Shown: positions 4,213 through 39,904 of the stretch, in pieces
Layout of the letters: every line of letters begins with the position of its first letter
Position numbering within the stretch: position 1 is the first letter of the stretch
Origin: Actinobacteria bacterium HGW-Actinobacteria-7
GTDB taxonomy: Bacteria > Actinomycetota > Coriobacteriia > Anaerosomatales > PHET01
Direction: 5' to 3'
Length of the DNA stretch: 39,921 bases
NCBI GenBank assembly: GCA_002841275.1
Contig: PHET01000020.1
Location: 4,869-44,789, forward strand
The notes under the pieces: model-generated
The model's database searches: none
What the model was told of the DNA's origin: nothing
The model's input: only the letters and a program-made list of their open reading frames with translations
Program-made: the position numbers and the translations under genes

Positions 4213-4242
4213 TTGCATTCTGCATACCCCATGGGGTATTAT
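4213..4242 (+). promoter_or_regulatory. Promoter with embedded CsoR/CstR-like palindromic operator
   Basis: A sigma70-type promoter is visible: TTGCAT (4213-4218), an 18-bp spacer and TATTAT (4237-4242). The perfect 16-bp palindrome ATACCCCATGGGGTAT (4224-4239) fills the spacer and overlaps the -10. C-tract/G-tract palindromes flanked by AT are typical operators of the CsoR/RcnR/FrmR/CstR repressor family, which respond to copper, nickel, formaldehyde or persulfide. No such regulator gene is in the window, so the inducer is unknown. The predicted transcript starts about 55 nt before the ferredoxin ATG. Confidence 0.7.
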
Positions 4243-4303: not shown

Positions 4304-4507
4304 ATGTCGACCATACGAATCGAGAACTCCCAGTGTGACCGATCGCCCGGCTGTCCGTCACGGCGAGTATGCCCTCAGGGCGCCATAGTCCCCGTCGAGG
4401 GCGGTTCGTACCCGGGCTCCAACGGTTACACTGTGATCCAGGACAAGTGCACCGGCTGCGGCGTGTGTATGCGTGTGTGTGCCGGCGGCGCTGTCCAGAT
4501 GGGATAA
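4304..4507 (+). CDS. Small ferredoxin with one canonical and one atypical Fe-S motif
   Basis: The protein has 67 residues and starts at an ATG about 10 nt after GGAGA. The second half has a canonical 4Fe-4S motif, C49-x2-C52-x2-C55-x3-C59. The first half has C11-x5-C17-x5-C23-P instead of CxxCxxCxxxCP, so only seven cysteines are present. By analogy with two-cluster ferredoxins it could hold one [4Fe-4S] and one [3Fe-4S] or incompletely ligated cluster. It is a soluble cytoplasmic electron carrier. The next gene starts 16 bp after its stop, so it is probably the electron donor or partner of the selenocysteine-containing thioredoxin-fold protein. A longer in-frame reading from 4097 crosses the promoter and is not credible. 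Confidence 0.85.
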
Positions 4508-4523
4508 CGATATGGAGACCAAA

Positions 4524-4874
4524 GTGAGCAACCCTGTGGTCGTAGAGGTTTTCGACATACCCGCTGCTAGCGACTGCTTCTCCGGGGGTTGAGGCCCGTC
4601 CTGGTCTCCGGAGGAGATCACCGCGATTATCCAGGCGGAAGTCGAGCGTCGCTACGGCGACGATGCCCAGATTCTCTATCGCGACGTTTCGCAGGCGGAC
4701 ACCGCATCCGAGCACGAAGCGATGGTCAAAGATATCGAGGTGCGCGGGCTGCTGTACCCGGTGACGGTCGTCGATGGAGTTCCTATCTACGATGGAGCCG
4801 TCAGCTATCCCGCGATATTGCGCGCTGTTCACAACAAGCTTGTCGAACGCGAAGAGGCCGCCGCGGCTGAGTGA
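4524..4874 (+). CDS. Putative selenoprotein: thioredoxin-fold ArsD/YuzD-like protein with a CxxxxU motif
   Basis: Reading through the TGA at 4590-4592 as selenocysteine gives an uninterrupted 116-residue protein from the GTG at 4524 (GGAG six bases upstream); an in-frame ATG at 4512 is the alternative start. The N-terminal beta strand VVVEVFDIP leads into C18-F-S-G-G-U23-G-P-S. ArsD proteins carry CSTGVCGPS at this place, so Sec replaces the second Cys of a CX4C pair. The rest fits a thioredoxin-like fold: a helix, an ILYRDV strand, LLYPVTVVDG with the probable cis-proline, and YDGAVSYP, resembling ArsD and YuzD-type proteins. Frame and homology are intact on both sides of the TGA, which argues against a pseudogene. 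A SECIS-like hairpin follows. The likely role is redox or metalloid/persulfide chemistry with the upstream ferredoxin (inference). Confidence 0.8.
4590..4620 (+). promoter_or_regulatory. Selenocysteine TGA and bacterial SECIS-like hairpin
   Basis: The TGA at 4590-4592 is followed by an 8-bp stem (4602-4609 with 4613-4620; UGGUCUCC paired with GGAGAUCA, including one G-U pair) closed by the triloop GGA. The loop begins 17 nt after the TGA and starts with G. This fits what is known of bacterial SECIS elements: a short hairpin inside the coding region with the loop about 16-37 nt after the UGA and a G in the first loop positions. Confidence 0.75.
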
Positions 4875-5004: not shown

Positions 5005-5298
5005 TCACCTGCGGGAACGAACCGAATCCAGAAACAGGCCGACAAGCCCTCTCTCGAGGAACTGCTCCCACGCGCCGCCCCGATCGGGTGCGAGCGTAAG
5101 GTCATACGCCCGACGCCGCGCTGGGTCGCGCAGCACCGCGTAGGCCTCGTTGATAGCCTGCATACGCCTCGTGCTCTGCTCCCGGTCGCCAACGCCGTTC
5201 AGATCCGGATGGTACTTGCGAGAGAGAGCCTTGAACGCTCGCTCGACGACCTCCGGCTCGGCATCCCTGGTGACCTGCAAGGTCCTGTAGTGATCCAT
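5005..5298 (-). CDS. Small J-domain (DnaJ-like) protein
   Basis: The 97-residue protein is almost only a J-domain: DHYRTLQV at the start, the HPD motif in RKYHPDLNG, and the closing helix INEAYAVLRDPARRRAYD. The HPD motif stimulates ATP hydrolysis by DnaK-type Hsp70 chaperones. The Gly/Phe region, zinc finger and C-terminal substrate domains of full DnaJ are missing, so this is a specialised co-chaperone of unknown client. The ATG at 5298 was chosen because the domain starts there; the longer reading overlaps the transporter gene upstream. It lies 14 bp after the transporter stop. Confidence 0.85.
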   Translation of the reverse strand: MDHYRTLQVTRDAEPEVVERAFKALSRKYHPDLNGVGDREQSTRRMQAINEAYAVLRDPARRRAYDLTLAPDRGGAWEQFLERGLVGLFLDSVRSRR

Positions 5299-5312
5299 TT
5301 GAATCAACCTGC

Positions 5313-6224
5313 TCAGATCGTCGCGGGTAGCGGCGCACGCCGAGAACGGATCTCTCCGATGACCACGCCACCCAATACGAGCGCCGCGCCGACCGTCTGT
5401 AGGATCGTGAGCCGCTGCTCCGGCCAAACAGCCATCGCCAAGGCGATGGTGAAGAGTGGCTCCACCGTCGAAATGACCGCTGCCTGTGCGGGTCCAAGCC
5501 CTCTGATACCTTCAAGATACAAGACGACGGCCGCGAACGTGGGCACAACGACAATCGCCGCGAGCAGCCACCACGCCTGAGGCTGCCATTCCGCGGTGGA
5601 GAGCGCGTTTCGCCCGACCGTCGCGAAAGCGCCGACAGCCGGAAGCAGCGCCGCGATCCCAAACGTGTACGCCATCATCGTCAATCGTGACCGGCCAGGC
5701 AGCCAGCGCGCCGACAGCAGATTGAACAGGGTGTACCCCACCGCCGCCCCTAACCCCAGCACAACGCCTTGCCAGGCGACGCCGCCCACCGCGTCCCCTA
5801 GACCAACCACCAGAGCGCAGCCCACGAAGGTGATCAGGACGGCAGCACCCTGGCCCCAGTCCGCTTTCTGACCTAGGAGCAGCCAACCTGTGAGCGTGAC
5901 GAACGCGGGGTAAGCGTAGAGAAGCACCGCCACCACAGATGCATCCGCGAACTTCAGTGCGTAGAAGAAGCAGATCGAAGCCGCGCCGTAGCCAGTCATC
6001 GCCAGCGTCGCGTAGCGCCGCACATCAGCCAACGGCACCACCAGTGCCCGGTGATCCCGAACAGACGCCAACACGCCCAGCAGCACCGCAGCGATCAGGA
6101 AGCGCCACGCCAGGAGCGGGAGCGGGTCTGCGCCGGCTTCATAGGCGAGCGGAGTGAGCACTGCGAGTGTGCCGAAGCACGCTGCCGAAAGAATCACCGC
6201 GATGAACGACCACTTACGGTTCAT
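5313..6224 (-). CDS. EamA-family (drug/metabolite transporter superfamily) permease
   Basis: The protein has about 303 residues and ten predicted transmembrane helices arranged as two EamA repeats. The first repeat begins with FIAVILSAACFGTLAVLTPLAYEAG and the second with VLGLGAAVGYTLFNLLSARWL. Members export small metabolites or amino acids across the cytoplasmic membrane; the substrate cannot be read from sequence. The ATG at 6224 (MNRKWSF) puts the first helix in the usual place, although its GGAG is only three bases away. An upstream start is possible. The gene is divergent from the VanZ-like gene. Confidence 0.88.
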   Translation of the reverse strand: MNRKWSFIAVILSAACFGTLAVLTPLAYEAGADPLPLLAWRFLIAAVLLGVLASVRDHRALVVPLADVRRYATLAMTGYGAASICFFYALKFADASVVAVLLYAYPAFVTLTGWLLLGQKADWGQGAAVLITFVGCALVVGLGDAVGGVAWQGVVLGLGAAVGYTLFNLLSARWLPGRSRLTMMAYTFGIAALLPAVGAFATVGRNALSTAEWQPQAWWLLAAIVVVPTFAAVVLYLEGIRGLGPAQAAVISTVEPLFTIALAMAVWPEQRLTILQTVGAALVLGGVVIGEIRSRRAPLPATI

Positions 6225-24021: not shown

Positions 24022-25296
24022 TTACTTGTTGTGGCAGCGCTCGCACACGCCACGATTGTCGGCACGAAGAATCGCGCTCGACACGTTCGGGTTCACACCA
24101 ACAGGGGCAACCGTCGTCGGCTCAACCGACCACGTGTTGACCGCAGAGGCCCCGTTATATACCAAGCGAGAGTTCGCCCAGCCGGTCATCGTGACATCGG
24201 AGCCGTGTGCACGGTGGCACGTGAGGCAACCCATGTAGTCAGTCAGACGGTACTCGCCAACCGGATCGGCCAGCGAAGCTGCGCTCTTCTCGAGCGGAAG
24301 TACGGTGCTCGTTACAGCGTTGGTGCCGAAGCTGTTGACGGTGTTCGCCGTACCAACCGTGGTGTTGACCGGGTGGCGGTGACGAGGCATGTCGCCAACA
24401 AAGTTCGCAGCGCCCGTGACTGTGAGCTTGCCGTCGACGTCGCGGCTGAGAGCGCCGTCAGACTCGTACGCGCCGTAGTCATAGTTGCTGGACAGGTTGT
24501 CGTACTGGGTGTGGCAGGTCGAGCACCACGTGGACATCGAGCGCGGTGAGGAGATACCCGAGCCAGTGGTCGGCTCGAAGAAGTACTGCGCTGCGGTGTA
24601 GTTCGGACGGTAAGCAACCATCTGCGCCGCGCCCGGATCATGCTTGAGCCAACCGCCAGTACCGACCGAGGGGTAGCCTTCCTCAGAAGAGAAGACGTAG
24701 CCCTGCGGAACGTCGCTACCGTTGTAGCCGCCAACGGTCACGCCGTTGACGCTGTCCTTGAGCAGGCGGTAGTTCGAAGAACCGTGCACGTCGTGACAGC
24801 TGATGCACGAGAGATCGGTTCCAGCAGGCGCCGACGTTCCGCCGCCCCACATGGGATCGGTCACAGAGCCCTTGTCCATGTCATGCATCGAACTCACGCC
24901 GGAGAACGCACCGCCGTTGAGGCCCGCATTGAACGTGGAGTTGGTCTCGTACAGGATGGCGCCACCAAGCGCCACCGTGTCGGCCCCTGAAGGACCGGAG
25001 TCGAAGATGCCTACCTCGACGTTGGTGGAAGCGCCGGGAGCAGCATCACCGTGGCATGCGTAGCAGAACTCCTGCATGGTCGATGCCGAAGACACGAGCA
25101 ATGCACTGCGTCCGCCACTAGGGCCAGCGTTGTCCCACGTGAGCGTGGAGAACGAGGTGTGTGCACGGTGACAGCCGGCGCATGCGTCGGTGTCAAGCGC
25201 GTACGCACCGTGAGGGCCGAAGTTTGCAAAGGCCGAACCCGCTGTCGCAACGATGACCAGCGCGGTCAGTGCAAGAACGATAGATACTCTCTTCAC
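24022..25296 (-). CDS. Periplasmic hexahaem c-type cytochrome of the hydrogenase operon
   Basis: The 424-residue protein has a signal peptide (VLALTALVIVATAGSAFA) and six CXXCH haem motifs: CAGCH, CYACH, CISCH, CSTCH, CLTCH and CERCH, the last three residues before the end. CHRAH and CHDVHG contexts match doubled-CXXCH cytochromes, with extra His residues as distal ligands. A GTG start follows GGGGG by eight bases. The gene lies 20 bp after the hydrogenase large subunit gene and should accept electrons from it. A close relative follows the formate dehydrogenase genes (34301-35515): same length class, same haem order and the same DNRGVCExCHNK ending. Confidence 0.92.
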   Translation of the reverse strand: MKRVSIVLALTALVIVATAGSAFANFGPHGAYALDTDACAGCHRAHTSFSTLTWDNAGPSGGRSALLVSSASTMQEFCYACHGDAAPGASTNVEVGIFDSGPSGADTVALGGAILYETNSTFNAGLNGGAFSGVSSMHDMDKGSVTDPMWGGGTSAPAGTDLSCISCHDVHGSSNYRLLKDSVNGVTVGGYNGSDVPQGYVFSSEEGYPSVGTGGWLKHDPGAAQMVAYRPNYTAAQYFFEPTTGSGISSPRSMSTWCSTCHTQYDNLSSNYDYGAYESDGALSRDVDGKLTVTGAANFVGDMPRHRHPVNTTVGTANTVNSFGTNAVTSTVLPLEKSAASLADPVGEYRLTDYMGCLTCHRAHGSDVTMTGWANSRLVYNGASAVNTWSVEPTTVAPVGVNPNVSSAILRADNRGVCERCHNK

Positions 25297-25316: not shown

Positions 25317-27443
25317 CTAGTGGACCGCGCAAGCGATGCACGGATCGAATGACTGGGCTACACGCAGCGCCTCGACGCCACCACCGGCACCGCCAGCGAT
25401 GAACGCACCAGCACCGCCCTTGGCAACGGTCTTGGTGGGCAAGTACGGAATACCGCCGTTGCTCGCCATGGCCGCTTCCATGGGACCACGCACGTCGTTC
25501 GCATCCTTGGGGGAGGCGTTCCACGTGGTGGGAACGATGCACTGGTAGCGAAGGATCTTGCCTGCGCCATCGATGCTGCACATATGCATAAGCGCACCGC
25601 GAGGTGCCTCACTGGCACCAAAGCCCTCGGCGCCACCTGGGGCAGCCTGCTTCGAAATGAAGGTGTCTGCCGTGCCAAGAGCGTCAAGCGCTGCCAACCA
25701 ACCGCCGCCGGTCCACGTGATGGGATCGAGGCCGTTGGTACCCGGGGTGAACCCGCCGATCATCTTCTGGATCAGCACGAACGACTCGAGCGGACGTGAG
25801 CGCAGGCGGTCGATGGTCGACGCGCCGCCCTTGAGGTTGTACACCCAACCGGCCACAGCACCAAGAATGACGGCACTGGGAAGGCCGTAGGCCAGCGCGA
25901 TCGTGGACTGCGTGATGTCCGCGATGTTGATGTTGGCTGATGCGTAAGACGTGGTACCAGCGTTGGTGACGGTCCAGTCCTGAGCAGCACCCACAAGGCC
26001 AAGCGCCGTGAGGTCCGCGTTGAACTTCAGCGTAGCAAGCCCGCTGCGCACGCACGCGACCGCGAGGTCGGGTCCGATGAGCGCGGGGTTGAGGCCAGTG
26101 TCGCCCCCAACGGTCTTGGCATACGCCGTGTAGCTCGGAACCGTCGTCCGCAGGTACACGCCGTCCTGGATGACGCCGGCAACGAAGAGGCGAGCCATGG
26201 GGCCGACCTCCATCGGGTGGCCGTCCCAGCGAGGTGCCTTAATCCAAGAGTACTTGTCGACGTCGTCGCGTACGGGAATGGTGCGCATCTCGGTGGCCGG
26301 CTCGGTGATGTCAGCAGCGACAACAACCGGTGCGCCGTTGGCATCAAGCTCGGTGACGCTACCTGCGTAGCGCGAGTACTTGATGTGCTCCTTGAGATTC
26401 GCGTAGACATCATCCTTGGTGATGGGCAGAGTCGCCGCGCCAAGGCCAACCTTGTATCCACGAGCCGAACCGAGCGTGCCATCCGTCTGCGGGAACGCAC
26501 CCCACGCCAGGAAGTTGCCACAACCCGCGCCGTAGCCTTCGCACGTGCCGAAGGGGCTGGAGACGTTGTTGACGTTGTCGTACTCGGGATAGAGCGCACC
26601 CAGAGCGAGGAACAACGGCACGAACTCCTGGATGATGAAGTTGCCGATCTCTTCCATCATCGAGCGGTACATCGTGCACTTGGACGTGAGTACCTCGTCC
26701 TTGTCGGTGGTCACACCACCGGCAACGAAGCAGGAAGTCATGGGCATACGGCCTGCGAACAGGGCGCCCGCCTCGAACGTGAGACGGCGGATGCGCAATG
26801 CCTTCACATACTGCTTGATGACGGCCGACCACAGGTCTACGGAGAAGCCTTCATCATCCAACGGGAGCGTGGCGCCGGCCTGAGCAGGCTGGCTCGCGTT
26901 GGTCGTAGCGGCAACACCCTTGCCGGTTGCCCTGAGCAGCGGGTGATAGAAGCTGTCATCGAAGTACGGCGTCCAAGGCGGAATGTTGGGACCCTGGATG
27001 TAGCTGGGGGCCGCAAGGTGATACGAGTGGGTGATGTGCGACATCAGGAACTCAGCTGAGAGCACGAGGTTTCTGATGTGCAGCGCCTTGGCCGGGATAC
27101 CCTGGCCATCGGGTACGTCAACCGTGCTCGTACCGTCAGCACTGCTGAGCTGCTGCCCGCCTGCGACCCACGTCTGGAAGCTGTCGTTGTAGCCCAGAAC
27201 GTTGTCGGCTGCGAATGTGGAGGTCTGGCCGTGAGGCACAGGGCACACACCGCAGATACGCTGGGTGAACGTGATAGCGTCGTTCACTTCACGGCCGATG
27301 AGGAAGTTCTCAAAACCGCGCCACAGGTTACCGTGGACATCGGCTTCGGTGACCATATTGGTCGCGTCATCAACCGTAAGCTTGACGCCGAGGTGACCTT
27401 CGATACGTGAGATCGGGTCGACCTCTCTGGTTACACTAGCCAT
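25317..27443 (-). CDS. [NiFe]-hydrogenase large subunit lacking the C-terminal maturation peptide
   Basis: The 708-residue protein binds the Ni-Fe site. The L1 motif R62-I-C-G-V-C67-P-V-P-H71 and the C-terminal D700-P-C-I-A-C-A-V-H708 supply the four cysteine ligands. ISRIEGHL near the start is also typical. The stop codon comes directly after the final His, the point where a protease normally cuts a C-terminal extension, so no proteolytic step seems needed. At 708 residues it is longer than most group 1 large subunits (about 550-600). It is exported with the Tat-signalled small subunit and oxidises H2. Gene order (small, large, cytochrome) and lack of a cytochrome b suggest a Coriobacteriia-type group 1 uptake enzyme (inference). 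Confidence 0.95.
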   Translation of the reverse strand: MASVTREVDPISRIEGHLGVKLTVDDATNMVTEADVHGNLWRGFENFLIGREVNDAITFTQRICGVCPVPHGQTSTFAADNVLGYNDSFQTWVAGGQQLSSADGTSTVDVPDGQGIPAKALHIRNLVLSAEFLMSHITHSYHLAAPSYIQGPNIPPWTPYFDDSFYHPLLRATGKGVAATTNASQPAQAGATLPLDDEGFSVDLWSAVIKQYVKALRIRRLTFEAGALFAGRMPMTSCFVAGGVTTDKDEVLTSKCTMYRSMMEEIGNFIIQEFVPLFLALGALYPEYDNVNNVSSPFGTCEGYGAGCGNFLAWGAFPQTDGTLGSARGYKVGLGAATLPITKDDVYANLKEHIKYSRYAGSVTELDANGAPVVVAADITEPATEMRTIPVRDDVDKYSWIKAPRWDGHPMEVGPMARLFVAGVIQDGVYLRTTVPSYTAYAKTVGGDTGLNPALIGPDLAVACVRSGLATLKFNADLTALGLVGAAQDWTVTNAGTTSYASANINIADITQSTIALAYGLPSAVILGAVAGWVYNLKGGASTIDRLRSRPLESFVLIQKMIGGFTPGTNGLDPITWTGGGWLAALDALGTADTFISKQAAPGGAEGFGASEAPRGALMHMCSIDGAGKILRYQCIVPTTWNASPKDANDVRGPMEAAMASNGGIPYLPTKTVAKGGAGAFIAGGAGGGVEALRVAQSFDPCIACAVH

Positions 27444-27468
27444 CTATCTCTTCCCTCCTTCCTTTCCT

Positions 27469-28848
27469 CTAACGGACGATGAACGGCAGGAAAGCGTCGG
27501 GGTAGCCCTGCTCCGTGCAAGCCATGCACGGGTGGCCGCCGGCAACGCAGTTGCCGCCCTTGCCGCTGTTGATGCCGCCAACGCCGTAGTCGAGCGTAGC
27601 GTCGTTGCGGGGATGCTGGGAGTTCCAACCATGCACAGCACAGAGCGTCATGGTCTGGGGGCCCTTGCAGCCGATGAGCTGCAGACAACCCGGATCGCCC
27701 GGCTTCGTCGCGAAGTTGTTGTTGCGCCAGTGCACGTAACGCTTGCAGTACGGGCCGTGAAGCGGCACGCCGTAGACGGCCTTGAGTCTGCGCTGATCGT
27801 CCACCGCAGCCGTGTTGATCGACTTGTCGGCGTTCAGAACGCCCAGAGGCTGGGTCGGCTGCGTGAAGTCAACAAGCCACGCGACGACCGTAAGGATGAA
27901 CCACCACGGGTTGGTGGGACAGCCCGGTACGTTGATGACCTTGTTGGATGCCGCGATGCCGTTCGCGCCCTGCGTGCGGAGATACTCGTAGGTGCCCAAG
28001 GCGCCGGTCTGGCTGCCCTTGAGGCCACTGACGGGGTTCTTCACGACAGGAGAGACGCATGCCGGATAGCCGCCGAACGTGGCGCACTGGCCGATAGGCA
28101 CGATCGCCTTGCAGCTGGGATCGGTGGCGAGATCGCGAATGACCTCGTCCATCTTGTGATCGCCGGCGCCGGTCTCCGGCTTGCCGATTGAACACCATGC
28201 GGCGTCGCCGGTCTTGTTCCACATACCGCCGCCATCGCTAGGCTGGATTGCGCCCTCGACGACGAGCACGAACGGGGTGGAGCCAGGGGTGAGGCGAAGC
28301 TGATTCAACCACTGGTACGCCAAGTCCCCGCCCATGTTCATGACGGTCTCATGGTACTGAAGGTCGATGAAGTCGATGAGTACGTCGGCGATGTTCGCCA
28401 CGAACGCGCTCTTGCCGCCGTTACCGCCGGCGCTCTCGAAGTCAGAGCCGACAATCCCATTGGTCTCGAAAAGGGTGCGGTGACCGTACGGGTGACCCGC
28501 ACCGGTCTCCTTGGTGATGCCGAGCGCGCCAGCAGTGATCGTGCCGGCAACGTTCCCGCCATCGCCGTTGCCTCCAACAGCGAGATCGAGGGCCTTGAGC
28601 GTCGAAATCGACGTACCCTCGACGGCGGTGCCTCTGACGTCTTCGAAGAGACTCAGAAGCGAGGTCGAGCAGCCTGTGCACTCTGCGCCGTGAACCCAAA
28701 CCACCTTGGGCTTGTCAGTCCACGCGCCGCTCCATACGGAACCATGGGCGAATGCCTGGGTGACCTGCGCGAGGTCAACCTGGCTCATTCCCATGGCTGC
28801 TGCCAGGGTGCTCAACCGGGTGACAAACTGTCTCCTGGTTATCGCCAT
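27469..28848 (-). CDS. [NiFe]-hydrogenase small subunit with Tat signal
   Basis: The 459-residue protein has an N-terminal Tat signal (TRRQFVTRL). The proximal Fe-S cluster motif is ECTGCSTSLL (Cys57, Cys60), with further ligands in IGQCATFGG and NVPGCPTNPWW. Medial and distal cluster cysteines lie in GPYCKRY, GCLQLIGCKGPQT and the final HPCMACTEQGYPD. About 25 extra residues, including DYGVGGINSGKGG, separate WN from the last Cys motif. The protein ends without the hydrophobic C-terminal anchor seen in membrane-bound group 1 enzymes. It transfers electrons from the Ni-Fe site, probably to the hexahaem cytochrome of the same operon. GAAGGAGG lies ten bases before the ATG. Confidence 0.95.
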   Translation of the reverse strand: MAITRRQFVTRLSTLAAAMGMSQVDLAQVTQAFAHGSVWSGAWTDKPKVVWVHGAECTGCSTSLLSLFEDVRGTAVEGTSISTLKALDLAVGGNGDGGNVAGTITAGALGITKETGAGHPYGHRTLFETNGIVGSDFESAGGNGGKSAFVANIADVLIDFIDLQYHETVMNMGGDLAYQWLNQLRLTPGSTPFVLVVEGAIQPSDGGGMWNKTGDAAWCSIGKPETGAGDHKMDEVIRDLATDPSCKAIVPIGQCATFGGYPACVSPVVKNPVSGLKGSQTGALGTYEYLRTQGANGIAASNKVINVPGCPTNPWWFILTVVAWLVDFTQPTQPLGVLNADKSINTAAVDDQRRLKAVYGVPLHGPYCKRYVHWRNNNFATKPGDPGCLQLIGCKGPQTMTLCAVHGWNSQHPRNDATLDYGVGGINSGKGGNCVAGGHPCMACTEQGYPDAFLPFIVR

Positions 28849-34300: not shown

Positions 34301-35515
34301 TTACTTGTTGTGGCACGCCTCGCATACGCCTCGGTTGTCCTTACGCAGCAGAGCAGACTCGCTGGCAGGGAACAGGTTCCTGGCGACGCCATCCGTGTCA
34401 ACAACTGAAGCCGCTCCAGCAGCACTGGCAAACCCGGTCATCGTCGACGACGTGCCGTGTGCACGGTGACAAGTCAGACACTCGATCCAGTCGCTGGTAT
34501 CAGCAACACGGGGACCTGCCGTAGCGGACTCAGTGAGCGAGTTCGCCAGCGGAAGACCGCTGTCGGCGACCAAAGCGACCGCGCCGTTGAAGTTGCTAAG
34601 CGGCACGTTGATGGGGTGACGATGGCGCAGCTTGAGGCCGCCGCCGTCGCCCGCATTGTAAACGCTGGCCGAAGCCGTGTAGGTGCTTCCGTCGGACTTG
34701 GTGAACATCTCGGCCTCACGCAGATAGGTCTGGTGACAACCAGCACACCAGCCGCTCATGCCCGTCTTGGCAGCAGCGTCGGAGGTGGTTGTGCGACCCT
34801 TTGCGTACATGGGCGTCGTGTAGTCCGGCTTGTAGTTCGGGTAGTCCTTGTGAAGCTCGAAACCGCCCAGCGGCCAGCCGGTCTCTACAGAAGAAACCCA
34901 GCCGTCAGGTGTGGGATCCGTGCCGGCGCCGACGTAGCCACCAACAGCGTTACCGTTGACCTGAGCCTTCAAGATGCGGTAGTTCGCGCTGCCGTGAGGA
35001 TCGTGGCAGGTCGCGCAGTCCATCTTGATCGGCACTGACTCGCCGATATCGGCCCCTGCGATCTGACCATCAGGATACGGAGTGCCGCCATAGTAGCCGC
35101 CGCCGTATGCGCCCCACGAAGCACCCTGGTACATGTGGGTCGACGTGGTCGCGCTCTGATCCAGAGACTCGAATCCACCACCGTTGAGGACGGCGAACTG
35201 CTCACCGTACGTGTCGCCCTCGTAGATACCTTCCTGGACGTTGGTATCAGCGCCCTGGCCGGTAGCGTCGTGACAGGCGTAGCAAAACTCCCACATCTGG
35301 GTGGCCGAGCTGACGAGCAACGCGCTCCGGTCAGACGGGCCGCTCTGCCACGTGATGCTGCTGATGGAAGTGTGAGCGCGGTGACAGCCGGCGCACGCAT
35401 CAGTGTCGGCAACGTAGTTGCCGTGGATCGCGAAGTTCGCAAAGGCAGTTGTCGGCACGGCAAGCGCGACGAGTACTGCGAGGGCGAACGCGATAACGAG
35501 TTTTCTCGACTTCAT
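34301..35515 (-). CDS. Periplasmic hexahaem c-type cytochrome of the formate dehydrogenase operon
   Basis: The 404-residue protein has a signal peptide (LVIAFALAVLVALAVPTTAFA, described by its core ALAVLVALAV) and six CXXCH motifs: CAGCH, CYACH, CATCH, CAGCH, CLTCH and CEACH. The start (ANFAIHGNYVADTDACAGCHRAH) and end (LLRKDNRGVCEACHNK) closely follow the hydrogenase-linked cytochrome at 24022-25296, showing paralogy. The middle has diverged. It starts 5 bp after fdhB and is the only candidate electron acceptor for the dehydrogenase in the window. Confidence 0.92.
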   Translation of the reverse strand: MKSRKLVIAFALAVLVALAVPTTAFANFAIHGNYVADTDACAGCHRAHTSISSITWQSGPSDRSALLVSSATQMWEFCYACHDATGQGADTNVQEGIYEGDTYGEQFAVLNGGGFESLDQSATTSTHMYQGASWGAYGGGYYGGTPYPDGQIAGADIGESVPIKMDCATCHDPHGSANYRILKAQVNGNAVGGYVGAGTDPTPDGWVSSVETGWPLGGFELHKDYPNYKPDYTTPMYAKGRTTTSDAAAKTGMSGWCAGCHQTYLREAEMFTKSDGSTYTASASVYNAGDGGGLKLRHRHPINVPLSNFNGAVALVADSGLPLANSLTESATAGPRVADTSDWIECLTCHRAHGTSSTMTGFASAAGAASVVDTDGVARNLFPASESALLRKDNRGVCEACHNK

Positions 35516-36394: not shown

Positions 36395-39300
36395 TTATAT
36401 CTTCTCGATGCGGCACAGGCATGCCTTGTACTCGGGAATGGTCGAGTTCGCGTCCATAGCGTCGAGGCACAGGTCATTGGCGCGAGAACCGGTCGACAGA
36501 CCGCGGTCGCCCCAGTGCCAAGGAATCGCCACTACGCCAACGCCAACCCGCTGATTGTCCTTCACGCCAACACCGACGCGGGCACGGAATCCATCGCCAT
36601 ACGCAGCGCGCGGATACGTTGAAGCGATGGTGTCACCGGCAAAACCGTCGGTGCGGGCGGTGACGATGCGTACCATGTCGCCGTCCTTGATGCTGAACGC
36701 GCGGGCATCAACGGAGTTGAGCTCGATCCACGGCTCCGGCTCCATCTCGACGTTCCAGTGGTTGTTACGCGTGATCGGGCCGCCTTGGAAGTGCTCGACG
36801 CACCGGATCGTGGTGAGAACCAGAGGATAGGTCTCCTTGGTTCCGCGAGGCGAGTCGGAGAAGATGAGGTTGCCCTCTGCTCCGGCCGCGCGGTCGCTCA
36901 TCTGGCTGCTGCTCGAGTTGTAGCCGTACACACCGGCTACATCGTCACGAGGCGTCTCGTAGGGCTCGGTGTGCCACGGGAAGCGTCCGGCGAATGAAGA
37001 GCCGTCCGGGGTAGCGCCACCGGGAAGCTGCGGCTTGTCCGCGAGCGTGTGGACCTTACGATAGGCCGTCGAGTACTCGACGACATCCGACTTCGTGCTG
37101 ACAAACAGCCGGGCCACGAGATCCGGACCCTGGAAACCGTCGCTGACGTCCCACGGGGTGTCGCCGTTGGTGTACAGGACGCGCCTGTTGACCAACCATG
37201 CGTAGCCCCAGTTCTTGTAGAGCAGGTGTCCGCCACCGTTGTCGAAGCCCACTCCGTCTGCATCAACGTTGATGCGCGACTTGGCGCGGTTCGGAGCACC
37301 GGCGGGCCAGCCGCCACCACGTGTGGTGGTAACCGAGTCCCAGCCCTCAAGGTAGAGCCAGAGAGCTCCACCGTTGTTCTGCGGTGCGCACATCTGCTTG
37401 TAGCACTTCTCAGCGGACGCTTCGCAATCGAAGGTTCCACCAGGAGTCCAACCGTACTGCTCGGCCCACAGCTTCGTGTAGGGGTCCCACGTCGGCTGAT
37501 TGATCGTGGCACCGGCCCATACGGCCTTGATGTGGTCGAACGCTCCGGCACCGTTGAGTGCAAAGGCGAAGCGCATCAGCAGCTCGATGTCGGTCTTGGA
37601 CTTGCCCTGCGGAGCGATGTTCTGGTAGCGCCACTGCAGAACTCGACCGGAGTTCGTAGCCGACCCGGCTTCCTCAACGTGCGAGGATGCAGGAATCAGG
37701 TAGGTGCGGCTATCGTCCTTGCGGTCGCACGCTGCGGTCTCGTTCTCGAACATGTCGACGCAGACCAGGAGATCGAGCTCCTTGAGACCAGAGCGAACCG
37801 CGCCCTGGTTCGGCTCGGTGACTGCAGGGTTCTGGCCCCACACAACGGCGGCGCGGATCTTGTCCGTGCCCGCCCACGAGCTCTGCATCTTGCGGAACAT
37901 CTTGACGTGGTTGTCGCCGTTACCCTTGGGCCACAGCGAGTAGAGAGCATCCATCGTTGCCGCATCCTCGGGGAGGACACTCAGCGGCTCGGTGTAGCCG
38001 ACAAACGAGCCCGTGTTCAACCGGTACGGGGTATCGCCGAAGTAGGTCTTGGTCATCGACCAGAACCCCTTCTGCTGCAGCCCGCCGCTTGCGAAGACGT
38101 ACGGATCAATAGCGGCGGTACCACCGGCAACACCATTGAGACGGTTGCCATACAGGCTGTTCATGTAGTGGCCGAAGTCACCGGTGGGGTTGCCCGAGTA
38201 GCCAGGGATCAGGTGATAGAGCAGACCCATGTCGGTCGAACCCTGAACGTTGTGGATGCCACGCAGGGCGTTGATTCCGCCACCGGCGCGGCCCATGTTG
38301 CCCATGAGCGTCTGGATGACCGCAAACGACTTCACGTTCTGGGAACCGCAAGTGTGCTGCGTGATGCCCATCGCGTACATGAAGGTCGTCGAGCGGTAGT
38401 TGGCCGTCCGAGGATCGTTGATGGTGGCAGCAAAAGCAGCTGCATCAGTTGCGACACTGGAGCAGCGGCTGTTGGCGATCATCTTGTCGGCCACGTACTT
38501 GATCTCGTCAGCCGTGCAGCCGCAGATGTCTGCGGACTCGGCAAGTGTGTACGGCGCGACATGTGCCTTGAGCGCGGAGAATGCCGTGCCCGCAGCGTAC
38601 ATGTCCGGCGTGCCCGTGAAGTCCAAGGCGGTACCGGCGACCGTGGGAAGCCCGGTGAACGTACCGAGGGCAGACACGTGCGTGTCACGTACGTAGTCGG
38701 TTGTACTCACGTTGAACGTGGCATCCGTGTACTTCGGACGAACAGGATTCTGCTTGGCGTTGGCATCGTTGTAGATGCTGGTCGCCTTCGCGAGAGTCGC
38801 CTGGTGATAGGCCTCCCAGCGGGTCTTCTTGTTCGAGTTCGCCGGGTCATTGAAACCGGTGCCGGTTCCGGTGGCATCCGTGATGTAGTTGATCATCGCG
38901 TTGATGAAAGCGATGTCGGTACCGGGACGGATGCGGATGTACTTGTCTGCCATGGCTGCGGTCCGCGTCTTCCGCGGGTCGATGACGATCATCTCAGCCT
39001 TGGGCTTGCTGCTCGTGTAGGCGTTGCCTGCACGATCATAGATGGTCTTCACGCCGCCCACGAGGTCCTCACGGGCACGGTTGACGTGCGCGATGCTCGC
39101 GGGGTGGTTCTCGGCCGGGTTGGCACCCATCACGATGAAGAGTGTGGCGTTACCAAGATCCGTCCAGTTGTTCGTCATGGCGCCTCGTCCAAATCCTGCG
39201 GCCAGACCGGCCACGGTGGACGAGTGTCATATACGAGCCTGATGCTCGGTGTTACTGGTGCCGAACTCCGCGATCAGCTTGCGGTACATCCAGTTGGGCT

Positions 39301-39904
39301 CGTTATTGATGTGCGATGAGCCGAAGAAGGCGACCGACTTGCTGTTCTGGTTGGCACCAGTCCAGCCTGCGACGTCCTTGTTGCGATACGCAACCATGCC
39401 CTCGTTGAACGCGGTACCGTCGCCGGCAGCGATCTCGTCGAACGCGGTCTGGAGGCCCATGGCCGTCCAGTCGCCGTTTCCAATCCGCTTCCAAGCGATG
39501 CCGGTGGCGTCGGAGCCAGCAGCATCGGAGGCGAAGACGTTGTTCACCGGATGATCGCCCGGGAATGCACCGATGCGCCGTGCATTGTTCACGAGCTGCA
39601 GCGAACCAGCGCCCTTGGCGCACAGCCCGCCTGCGTTGAAGGGCGACTGGAAGTCGCCATAGATGTCGACGACAGTGCCTGATGCGATTTCTTTGACGAC
39701 GCGCTGCCCGCAGCTCGCTGAGCAGTACGGACACGTCGTCGTGGTGATCGTGTGCAGTGGGGAGTCCTCGTACGCCGCAGCTTTATCTGCATCGTAGGCG
39801 AAATCCAGACCGCAACCGACCACCGCTGTTGCGGCAGCTGTAGTCTTCAGGAAATCACGCCTGCTGATTCCCGAGGACGGCTGCCCGGTGTCCCTAGTTG
39901 CCAT
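36395..39904 (-). CDS. Selenocysteine formate dehydrogenase catalytic subunit
   Basis: Reading the TGA at 39229-39227 as Sec226 gives one 1169-residue protein; without it the gene splits into two ORFs. A Tat signal (SRRDFLK) is at residues 14-20. An Fe4S4 motif follows: Cys58-x2-Cys61-x3-Cys65-x29-Cys95. The active site HQARI-U-H-SSTVAGLAAGFGRGAMTN matches formate dehydrogenases of the FdnG/FdoG type, where Sec coordinates Mo or W and the next His assists. The C-terminal molybdopterin-binding domain is present (NSVDARAFSIKDGDMVRI). The protein oxidises formate to CO2 outside the membrane and passes electrons to FdhB. It is longer than E. coli FdnG (about 1015). Only 17 bp upstream are in the window, so its promoter is not seen. 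Confidence 0.95.
39198..39229 (-). promoter_or_regulatory. Selenocysteine UGA and SECIS hairpin in fdhA
   Basis: UGA is at 39229-39227. A 6-bp stem (39214-39209 with 39203-39198; GUGGCC paired with GGCCGC, one U-G pair) closes the loop GGUCU, which begins 18 nt after the UGA. The loop sequence and distance match the E. coli fdhF SECIS, recalled as a GGUC loop at the same position. Confidence 0.88.

Follow-up and report, generated by a model that had tools for sequence, protein, structure and literature searches.

Catalogued selenoproteins with a thioredoxin-like fold and an N-terminal Cys/Sec pair include the UxxC/CxxU types, Sec.1/Sec.2, SaoT, and HUIPC, but none of them is given with a Cys-x4-Sec motif or with the DUF1462 domain (PMC13188914). 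DUF1462 (Pfam PF07315, YuzD), which the literature puts in the thioredoxin-like clan, is not among the 119 selenoprotein families of the 2026 catalogue, nor is any Cys-x4-Sec thioredoxin-like family (PMC13188914). Among regulators of sulfur stress, CstR senses persulfides and controls sulfurtransferases (PMC5480029). Isolates of the Anaerosomatales (OPB41), probably the order studied here, respire sulfur, thiosulfate, or iron (PMC9686372).

We analyzed a stretch of 39,921 nucleotides of actinobacterial DNA, referred to as the window. The initial annotation, made from the sequence alone, had proposed that it hides an ArsD/YuzD-like selenoprotein of a family in which it knew of no described selenoprotein. 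The catalogue is consistent with the latter point, and so is NCBIfam 20.0 (2026), which has no model matching the protein.

A selenoprotein gene with an in-frame TGA

The gene and its internal TGA are located as follows.

4524 to 4874, plus strand: selenoprotein gene of the DUF1462 family, with a GTG start, Cys18-x4-Sec23, and a TGA stop at 4872 to 4874
4590 to 4592, plus strand: TGA almost certainly decoded as selenocysteine (U23), kept in 63/63 homologues

When the TGA is read as Sec, the frame encodes 116 residues, beginning VSNPVVVEVFDIPAASDCFSGGUGPSWSPEEI. Start codon, TGA position, and length agree in coordinates and translation with those first proposed. The active-site motif C-F-S-G-G-U-G-P-S is also present, with a small correction of the spacing, which is Cys-x4-Sec (C18, U23). 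The GTG at 4524 is preceded, at about 6 nt, by a GGAG ribosome-binding site, and the relatives also start at this point, mostly with ATG; an alternative in-frame ATG at 4512 is possible. No signal peptide was seen in the DUF1462 selenoprotein, and the best explanation is a putative cytosolic protein with a thioredoxin fold.

A protein search of 99 related genomes found homologues in 63, comprising 61 of the 69 genomes of the order and 2 elsewhere in the class. All 63 were translated. The initial annotation had left it to homologues to show Cys or TGA at the position in question, and every one has TGA at the identical codon, never TAA, TAG, or a Cys codon, within a motif close to C-x-x-x-G-U-G-P-[S/T/A]-W. 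When the 61 genes from the order are aligned by codon, the Sec column is TGA throughout (61/61). The ratio pN/pS, taken over ten close pairs, is 0.09 upstream of the TGA and 0.12 downstream of it; the downstream sequence is under purifying selection. Two findings that had been named as fatal to the proposal, homologues ending at the TGA and stops at other positions in relatives, were not made: all homologues read through the TGA, and their core holds no further in-frame stop.

By the standard code, translation would end at the TGA, and gene callers would stop there or choose an antisense frame. This agrees with the prediction that they would miss the gene, and it is likely misannotated in the genomes of relatives because callers stop at the TGA. 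Taken at face value, a true stop would leave a truncated gene, a decayed one, or a pair of short genes. The unbroken conservation of TGA, the selection downstream of it, the synonymous invariance and covariation of the hairpin described below, and the absence of ATG, GTG, or TTG among the codons directly downstream of 4590 to 4592 in the window refute such a pseudogene, to which we give practically no weight.

The SECIS hairpin

According to the bSECIS model, the loop has 3 to 9 nt and carries G in its first two positions, the upper stem has 4 to 16 bp, and the distance from the UGA is 16 to 37 nt (PMC13188914). The 8-bp hairpin with a GGA loop that had been noticed after the TGA is exact.

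4602 to 4620, plus strand: SECIS hairpin, with TGGTCTCC at 4602 to 4609, loop GGA at 4610 to 4612, and GGAGATCA at 4613 to 4620

The stem begins 9 nt past the TGA, and the loop, with G in first place, follows 17 nt after it; loop length (3 nt), stem length (8 bp), and distance (17 nt) all fall within the model (PMC13188914). The hairpin codons +5 to +9 (TCT CCG GAG GAG ATC) are 98 to 100% invariant synonymously in 61 genes, whereas TCT makes up only 18% of the Ser codons in the gene family and codons outside the hairpin vary freely. In distant families, the stem pairs change in step (CTCC/GGAG, CTCA/TGAG, and CTCT/AGAG, among others), and across 23 distinct 19-mers of the hairpin 96.2% of the cells pair. 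Changes on both sides were counted in 23 cells, compared with 7.9 in shuffles, and none of 500 shuffles reached 23; this count is not to be read as a probability, because the sequences are related, and the slid control agrees with it. The covariation score was 0.43, compared with 0.18 for shuffled sequences (0/500) and at most 0.10 in the slid controls. Folding energy alone was uninformative, the value of −14.8 kcal/mol for the 46-nt stretch not being unusual (z = −0.38).

Selenocysteine machinery

In the source genome, selD (C34:29881), selA (C34:32220), and selB (C34:33623) are neighbors on contig C34; selB is interrupted by the contig end, and selD itself holds one TGA and is Sec bearing. 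A tRNA-Sec gene was found at C2:32383 (69 bits). The search for sel genes that had been suggested thus returned the whole set. In the order, selB and the DUF1462 gene occur together in 48 genomes, the gene alone in 13, selB alone in 3, and neither in 5, a weak trend that is limited by draft genomes. The 13 are genomes in which no selB match exceeded the cutoff; several gene-bearing genomes lack selB or a clear tRNA-Sec, some of them both, and two of these are nearly complete (G053, 98%; G055, 96%). The absences count against the Sec reading, but many relatives are draft genomes, and draft gaps are the most plausible cause.

The window itself holds a second recoded gene, the Sec-containing formate dehydrogenase to which the initial annotation had pointed, whose alpha gene (36395 to 39904) is split by gene callers.

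39227 to 39229, minus strand: Sec TGA of the formate dehydrogenase alpha gene, in the context R-I-U-H-S

The TGA, motif, and a hairpin were all found, and this TGA is an independent sign of UGA recoding here. The hairpin that follows the TGA (39229 to 39227 in reading direction) is GGCC-GGTCT-GGCC. Genes for multiheme cytochrome-like proteins (219 to 2345, 24022 to 25296, and 34301 to 35515, minus strand) were seen near a NiFe hydrogenase (25317 to 28848) and the formate dehydrogenase.

The DUF1462 frame would also be open if UGA encoded Trp or were simply read through. TGA terminates other genes here, the adjoining invariant Trp27 is encoded by TGG, DUF1462 and ArsD relatives have Cys at the aligned residue, and a SECIS hairpin and sel genes are present. 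Together with codon conservation, hairpin covariation, and the selection data, this rejects Trp decoding, which we consider vanishingly improbable. As first claimed, the in-frame TGA is genuine, and selenocysteine is almost certainly what it encodes; there is hardly any doubt that UGA23 is decoded by way of the bacterial SECIS hairpin.

Family assignment and distant relatives

The window protein matched Pfam PF07315 (DUF1462, YuzD) with 33.1 bits against a cutoff of 25, and the profile was matched by 23/23 aligned members at E ≤ 0.1. ArsD (PF06953) was the second-best Pfam family, touched weakly by 16/23 members with a best E value of 7.6e-4; these matches are below the curated cutoff, and the window protein is not among them. 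The DUF1462/YuzD half of the proposed ArsD/YuzD-like assignment therefore stands, while ArsD is a distant relative. In the 23-member alignment, Cys18, Sec23, the following Gly-Pro, Trp27, and Pro79 (at the usual place of a cis-Pro) are invariant.

The family profile also finds PDB entry 1xg8 (Staphylococcus aureus SA0798) at 7e-7, with its Cys at the Sec position. As to the thioredoxin fold (beta-alpha-beta-alpha-beta-beta-alpha), a single-sequence structure model of the window protein was weak (pLDDT of 59), and Foldseek placed 1xg8 first for this model, followed by thioredoxins and ArsD (3mwh), none under an E value of 1e-3.

When the profile was run against the whole phylum, five other families yielded further TGA-bearing relatives, with motifs such as CGFGU-GSYGLSQAEI, SCSGGU-GPSWSLEEI, and CRGGGU-APPLSLEE. 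In a sister subfamily (L102, L222, L223, L225, and L227), which reads PSG-U-SSSGxAGG-C-G, the two residues are exchanged, Sec occupying the first Cys position and Cys the Sec position. One Cys-only homologue was found (L226 in G323). The first Cys is lost in the distant member L104 and moved in L085. A single-sequence scan of a collection of genome contigs found no relative, an alignment-based scan of it gave four short, spurious matches, and a plasmid search found none.

The kinship with ArsD raises the question of metal(loid) handling. An ArsD-like selenoprotein would use Cys18 and Sec23 to capture a thiophilic metal(loid), As(III) or another, and pass it to a pump such as an ACR3-like permease, as part of a metal(loid)-stress regulon. 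C18 and U23 align with the residues that we take to be Cys13 and Cys18 of ArsD. The counterpart of ArsD Cys12 is absent, so that 2 of the 3 metal positions of ArsD are kept. Plain ArsD membership was rejected, the score being under the cutoff and one metal Cys missing.

A ferredoxin partner and a shared operator

Upstream of the selenoprotein gene are a promoter, a palindrome, and a ferredoxin gene.

4213 to 4242, plus strand: putative sigma-70-type promoter, TTGCAT at 4213 to 4218 and TATTAT at 4237 to 4242, the −10 element overlapping the right half of the operator
4224 to 4239, no strand assigned: operator-like palindrome ATACCCCATGGGGTAT, single match in the window
4304 to 4507, plus strand: small ferredoxin gene (Pfam Fer4, 3.7e-8), with first cluster motif CX5CX5CP and second CX2CX2CX3C

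The ferredoxin gene directly precedes the selenoprotein gene in 52/63 orthologue loci, with a gap of about 10 to 40 nt; cotranscription of the two from one promoter is the best explanation of this arrangement. At the distant locus L082, a similar ferredoxin gene lies downstream of the Sec gene, whereas L101 and L104 have a thioredoxin gene upstream of it and a gene for an FmdB-type zinc ribbon downstream. At L085 (3271 to 9111; G323:C6), the Pfam-confirmed array is ArsD-ArsR-ArsA-ArsA-Sec protein-FmdB-SBF permease-methyltransferase. The permease there is an SBF-USP permease, and the Sec-bearing DUF1462 relative lies within the ars operon.

The palindrome ATACCC-N4-GGGTAT occurs at the promoter in 60/61 members of the order (at most one mismatch). 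Its core, TACCC-N4-GGGTA, is found once each in 58/63 orthologue loci, lying about 340 nt upstream of the TGA, or about 140 nt if the ferredoxin gene is absent; 2 further loci have it with a single mismatch. TATNNT follows the GGG in 42 of the 58 loci, and a TTG-like triplet lies 9 to 12 nt before the operator, giving a spacer of 17 to 18 nt. The only member of the order without the operator, G013, also lacks the repressor gene.

The source genome has seven operator sites (reversed control, 0), and the 16-mer is present in 67/71 relatives (reversed control, one genome only). CsoR-family genes occur in 64/71 relatives, in many genomes about 1 kb from an operator; all 64 genomes with such a gene have operators, while 4 of the 7 without it have none. 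The seven sites mark the DUF1462 operon, a rhodanese-thioredoxin gene, an SBF/ACR3-like permease, CcdA with HMA, a CsoR/CDF cluster, Hsp20, and fasciclin, the last two neighbors named by eye. Genes for HAD and FAD-oxidase proteins, like those for fasciclin and Hsp20, adjoin some operators. When one operator locus was taken from each genome (30 in all), 26 fell at six recurring units: thioredoxin/CbiX-like membrane protein/DUF302-like (10), ferredoxin or selenoprotein (8), permease (4), rhodanese-thioredoxin (2), CcdA (1), and DUF302-like alone (1). The DUF302-like neighbor is presumably of that kind; Pfam gave no match.

The rhodanese-thioredoxin fusion (G000:C1:186057-186755; L191, about 5055 to 5759, outside the window) has an in-frame TGA as well (FFTDSUPTC), with the hairpin AGCCCTT-GGTCG-AAGGGCT 26 nt after it and the same operator upstream. 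One TGA is present in 53/53 long matches from 51 relatives, and no NCBIfam model reaches its cutoff on this protein. Since the operator also marks this second selenoprotein, the regulon offers a way to ask why selenocysteine has been retained in these anaerobes.

The CsoR-family repressor has Cys43 and Cys72 in 47/47 sequences and a Ser at the position of the copper-ligand His of CsoR. A copper-sensing CsoR regulon is disfavored because this His position is Ser, and we infer a CstR-like repressor from these aligned residues. In the source genome (G000:C27; L195, 12115 to 12705), two repressor domains are fused in tandem within a single frame; the repressor of most relatives has one. Going by the shared palindrome, the DUF1462 selenoprotein probably belongs to this CsoR-family/CstR-like regulon, with the repressor predicted to bind there.

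Proposed function

We think it reasonably probable that the DUF1462 selenoprotein is a ferredoxin-fed Cys/Sec redox protein of a reactive-sulfur or thiol-stress regulon. Sec coding, the conserved pair, the ferredoxin linkage, and the shared operator are read from the sequences. A CsoR-family, CstR-like repressor would cover the promoter of the ferredoxin-selenoprotein operon until reactive sulfur or thiol stress modifies its Cys pair. The derepressed set would then comprise thioredoxin, CcdA/HMA, the rhodanese-thioredoxin selenoprotein, the permease, and the ferredoxin with the DUF1462 selenoprotein. In the latter, the Sec23 selenolate may attack persulfides, polysulfides, or disulfides, Cys18 would resolve the Se-S intermediate, and either the partner ferredoxin, with its low-potential electrons, or the coregulated thioredoxin would rereduce the pair. 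As a set, attack, resolution, and rereduction fall slightly short of an even chance. Repression, induction by reactive sulfur, electron flow, and the persulfide or disulfide substrate are the parts of this scheme that we infer.

The invariant Cys/Sec pair and the Sec/Cys swap between subfamilies favor redox chemistry. The loss of the first Cys in L104 and its displacement in L085 count against the favored reading.

The main rival of the sulfur reading is metal(loid) handling, for which the relationship to ArsD, the ACR3-like permease, and locus L085 speak. The SBF/ACR3-like permease, HMA, and CDF proteins are in the regulon, and the ACR3-related permease and the HMA protein suit metal(loids) equally. 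Against this, the permease scores 101 where the ACR3 cutoff is 282.8, arsA was not seen in the operator neighborhoods inspected, the coregulated genes are mostly those of thiol and sulfur enzymes, and the repressor lacks the copper His. We regard the ArsD-like role as unlikely, though well above the remaining alternative. The latter gives the selenoprotein another main task, the delivery of sulfur, selenium, or Fe-S building blocks, with the ferredoxin as client; its usual neighbor is indeed an Fe-S protein, and the present results fix no substrate, but the invariant pair and the subfamily swap speak for redox chemistry, and we hold delivery to be quite improbable. Within the favored redox reading, the fullest version, a selenium-based reactive-sulfur defense regulon in which one CstR-like repressor controls two order-wide selenoproteins and a dedicated ferredoxin directly feeds a DUF1462 reductase through Cys-x4-Sec, is put forward tentatively, as possible yet somewhat doubtful.

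Comparison with known systems

The ferredoxin partner, the operator and regulon, the second selenoprotein, and the Sec-bearing relatives in other families of the phylum are new here and had been missed by the initial annotation. The window protein adds a selenoprotein family with Cys/Sec-swapped sister groups, near-universal within the order and also found in further families of the phylum, and the ferredoxin partner and operator turn a DUF into a testable redox component of what may be a sulfur/thiol-stress response. We know of no described precedent for a ferredoxin coupled to a selenol thioredoxin-fold protein.

SA0798 (1xg8), the DUF1462 protein of known structure, has the same length, a thioredoxin-like fold that is predicted for the window protein as well, and a Cys aligned with Sec. 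It has CxxC where the window protein has Cys-x4-Sec, and only the second position corresponds; CxxC is a feature of this one solved member and not a curated criterion of the family. The window protein further differs from it in being linked to a ferredoxin and dependent on a SECIS. ArsD reads C-x2-G-x-C-G-P, like the C-x2-G-x-U-G-P of the window protein, but its systems are ars operons with arsA, and the window has no ars operon. The CstR regulon of S. aureus (tauE, cstA, cstB, and sqr; PMC5480029) likewise has a CsoR-family repressor with a Cys pair and, among its targets, a sulfurtransferase-type (rhodanese) gene and a transporter. Unlike that regulon, the one described here has about seven dispersed sites, with targets that include two selenoproteins, a ferredoxin, a thioredoxin, and CcdA.
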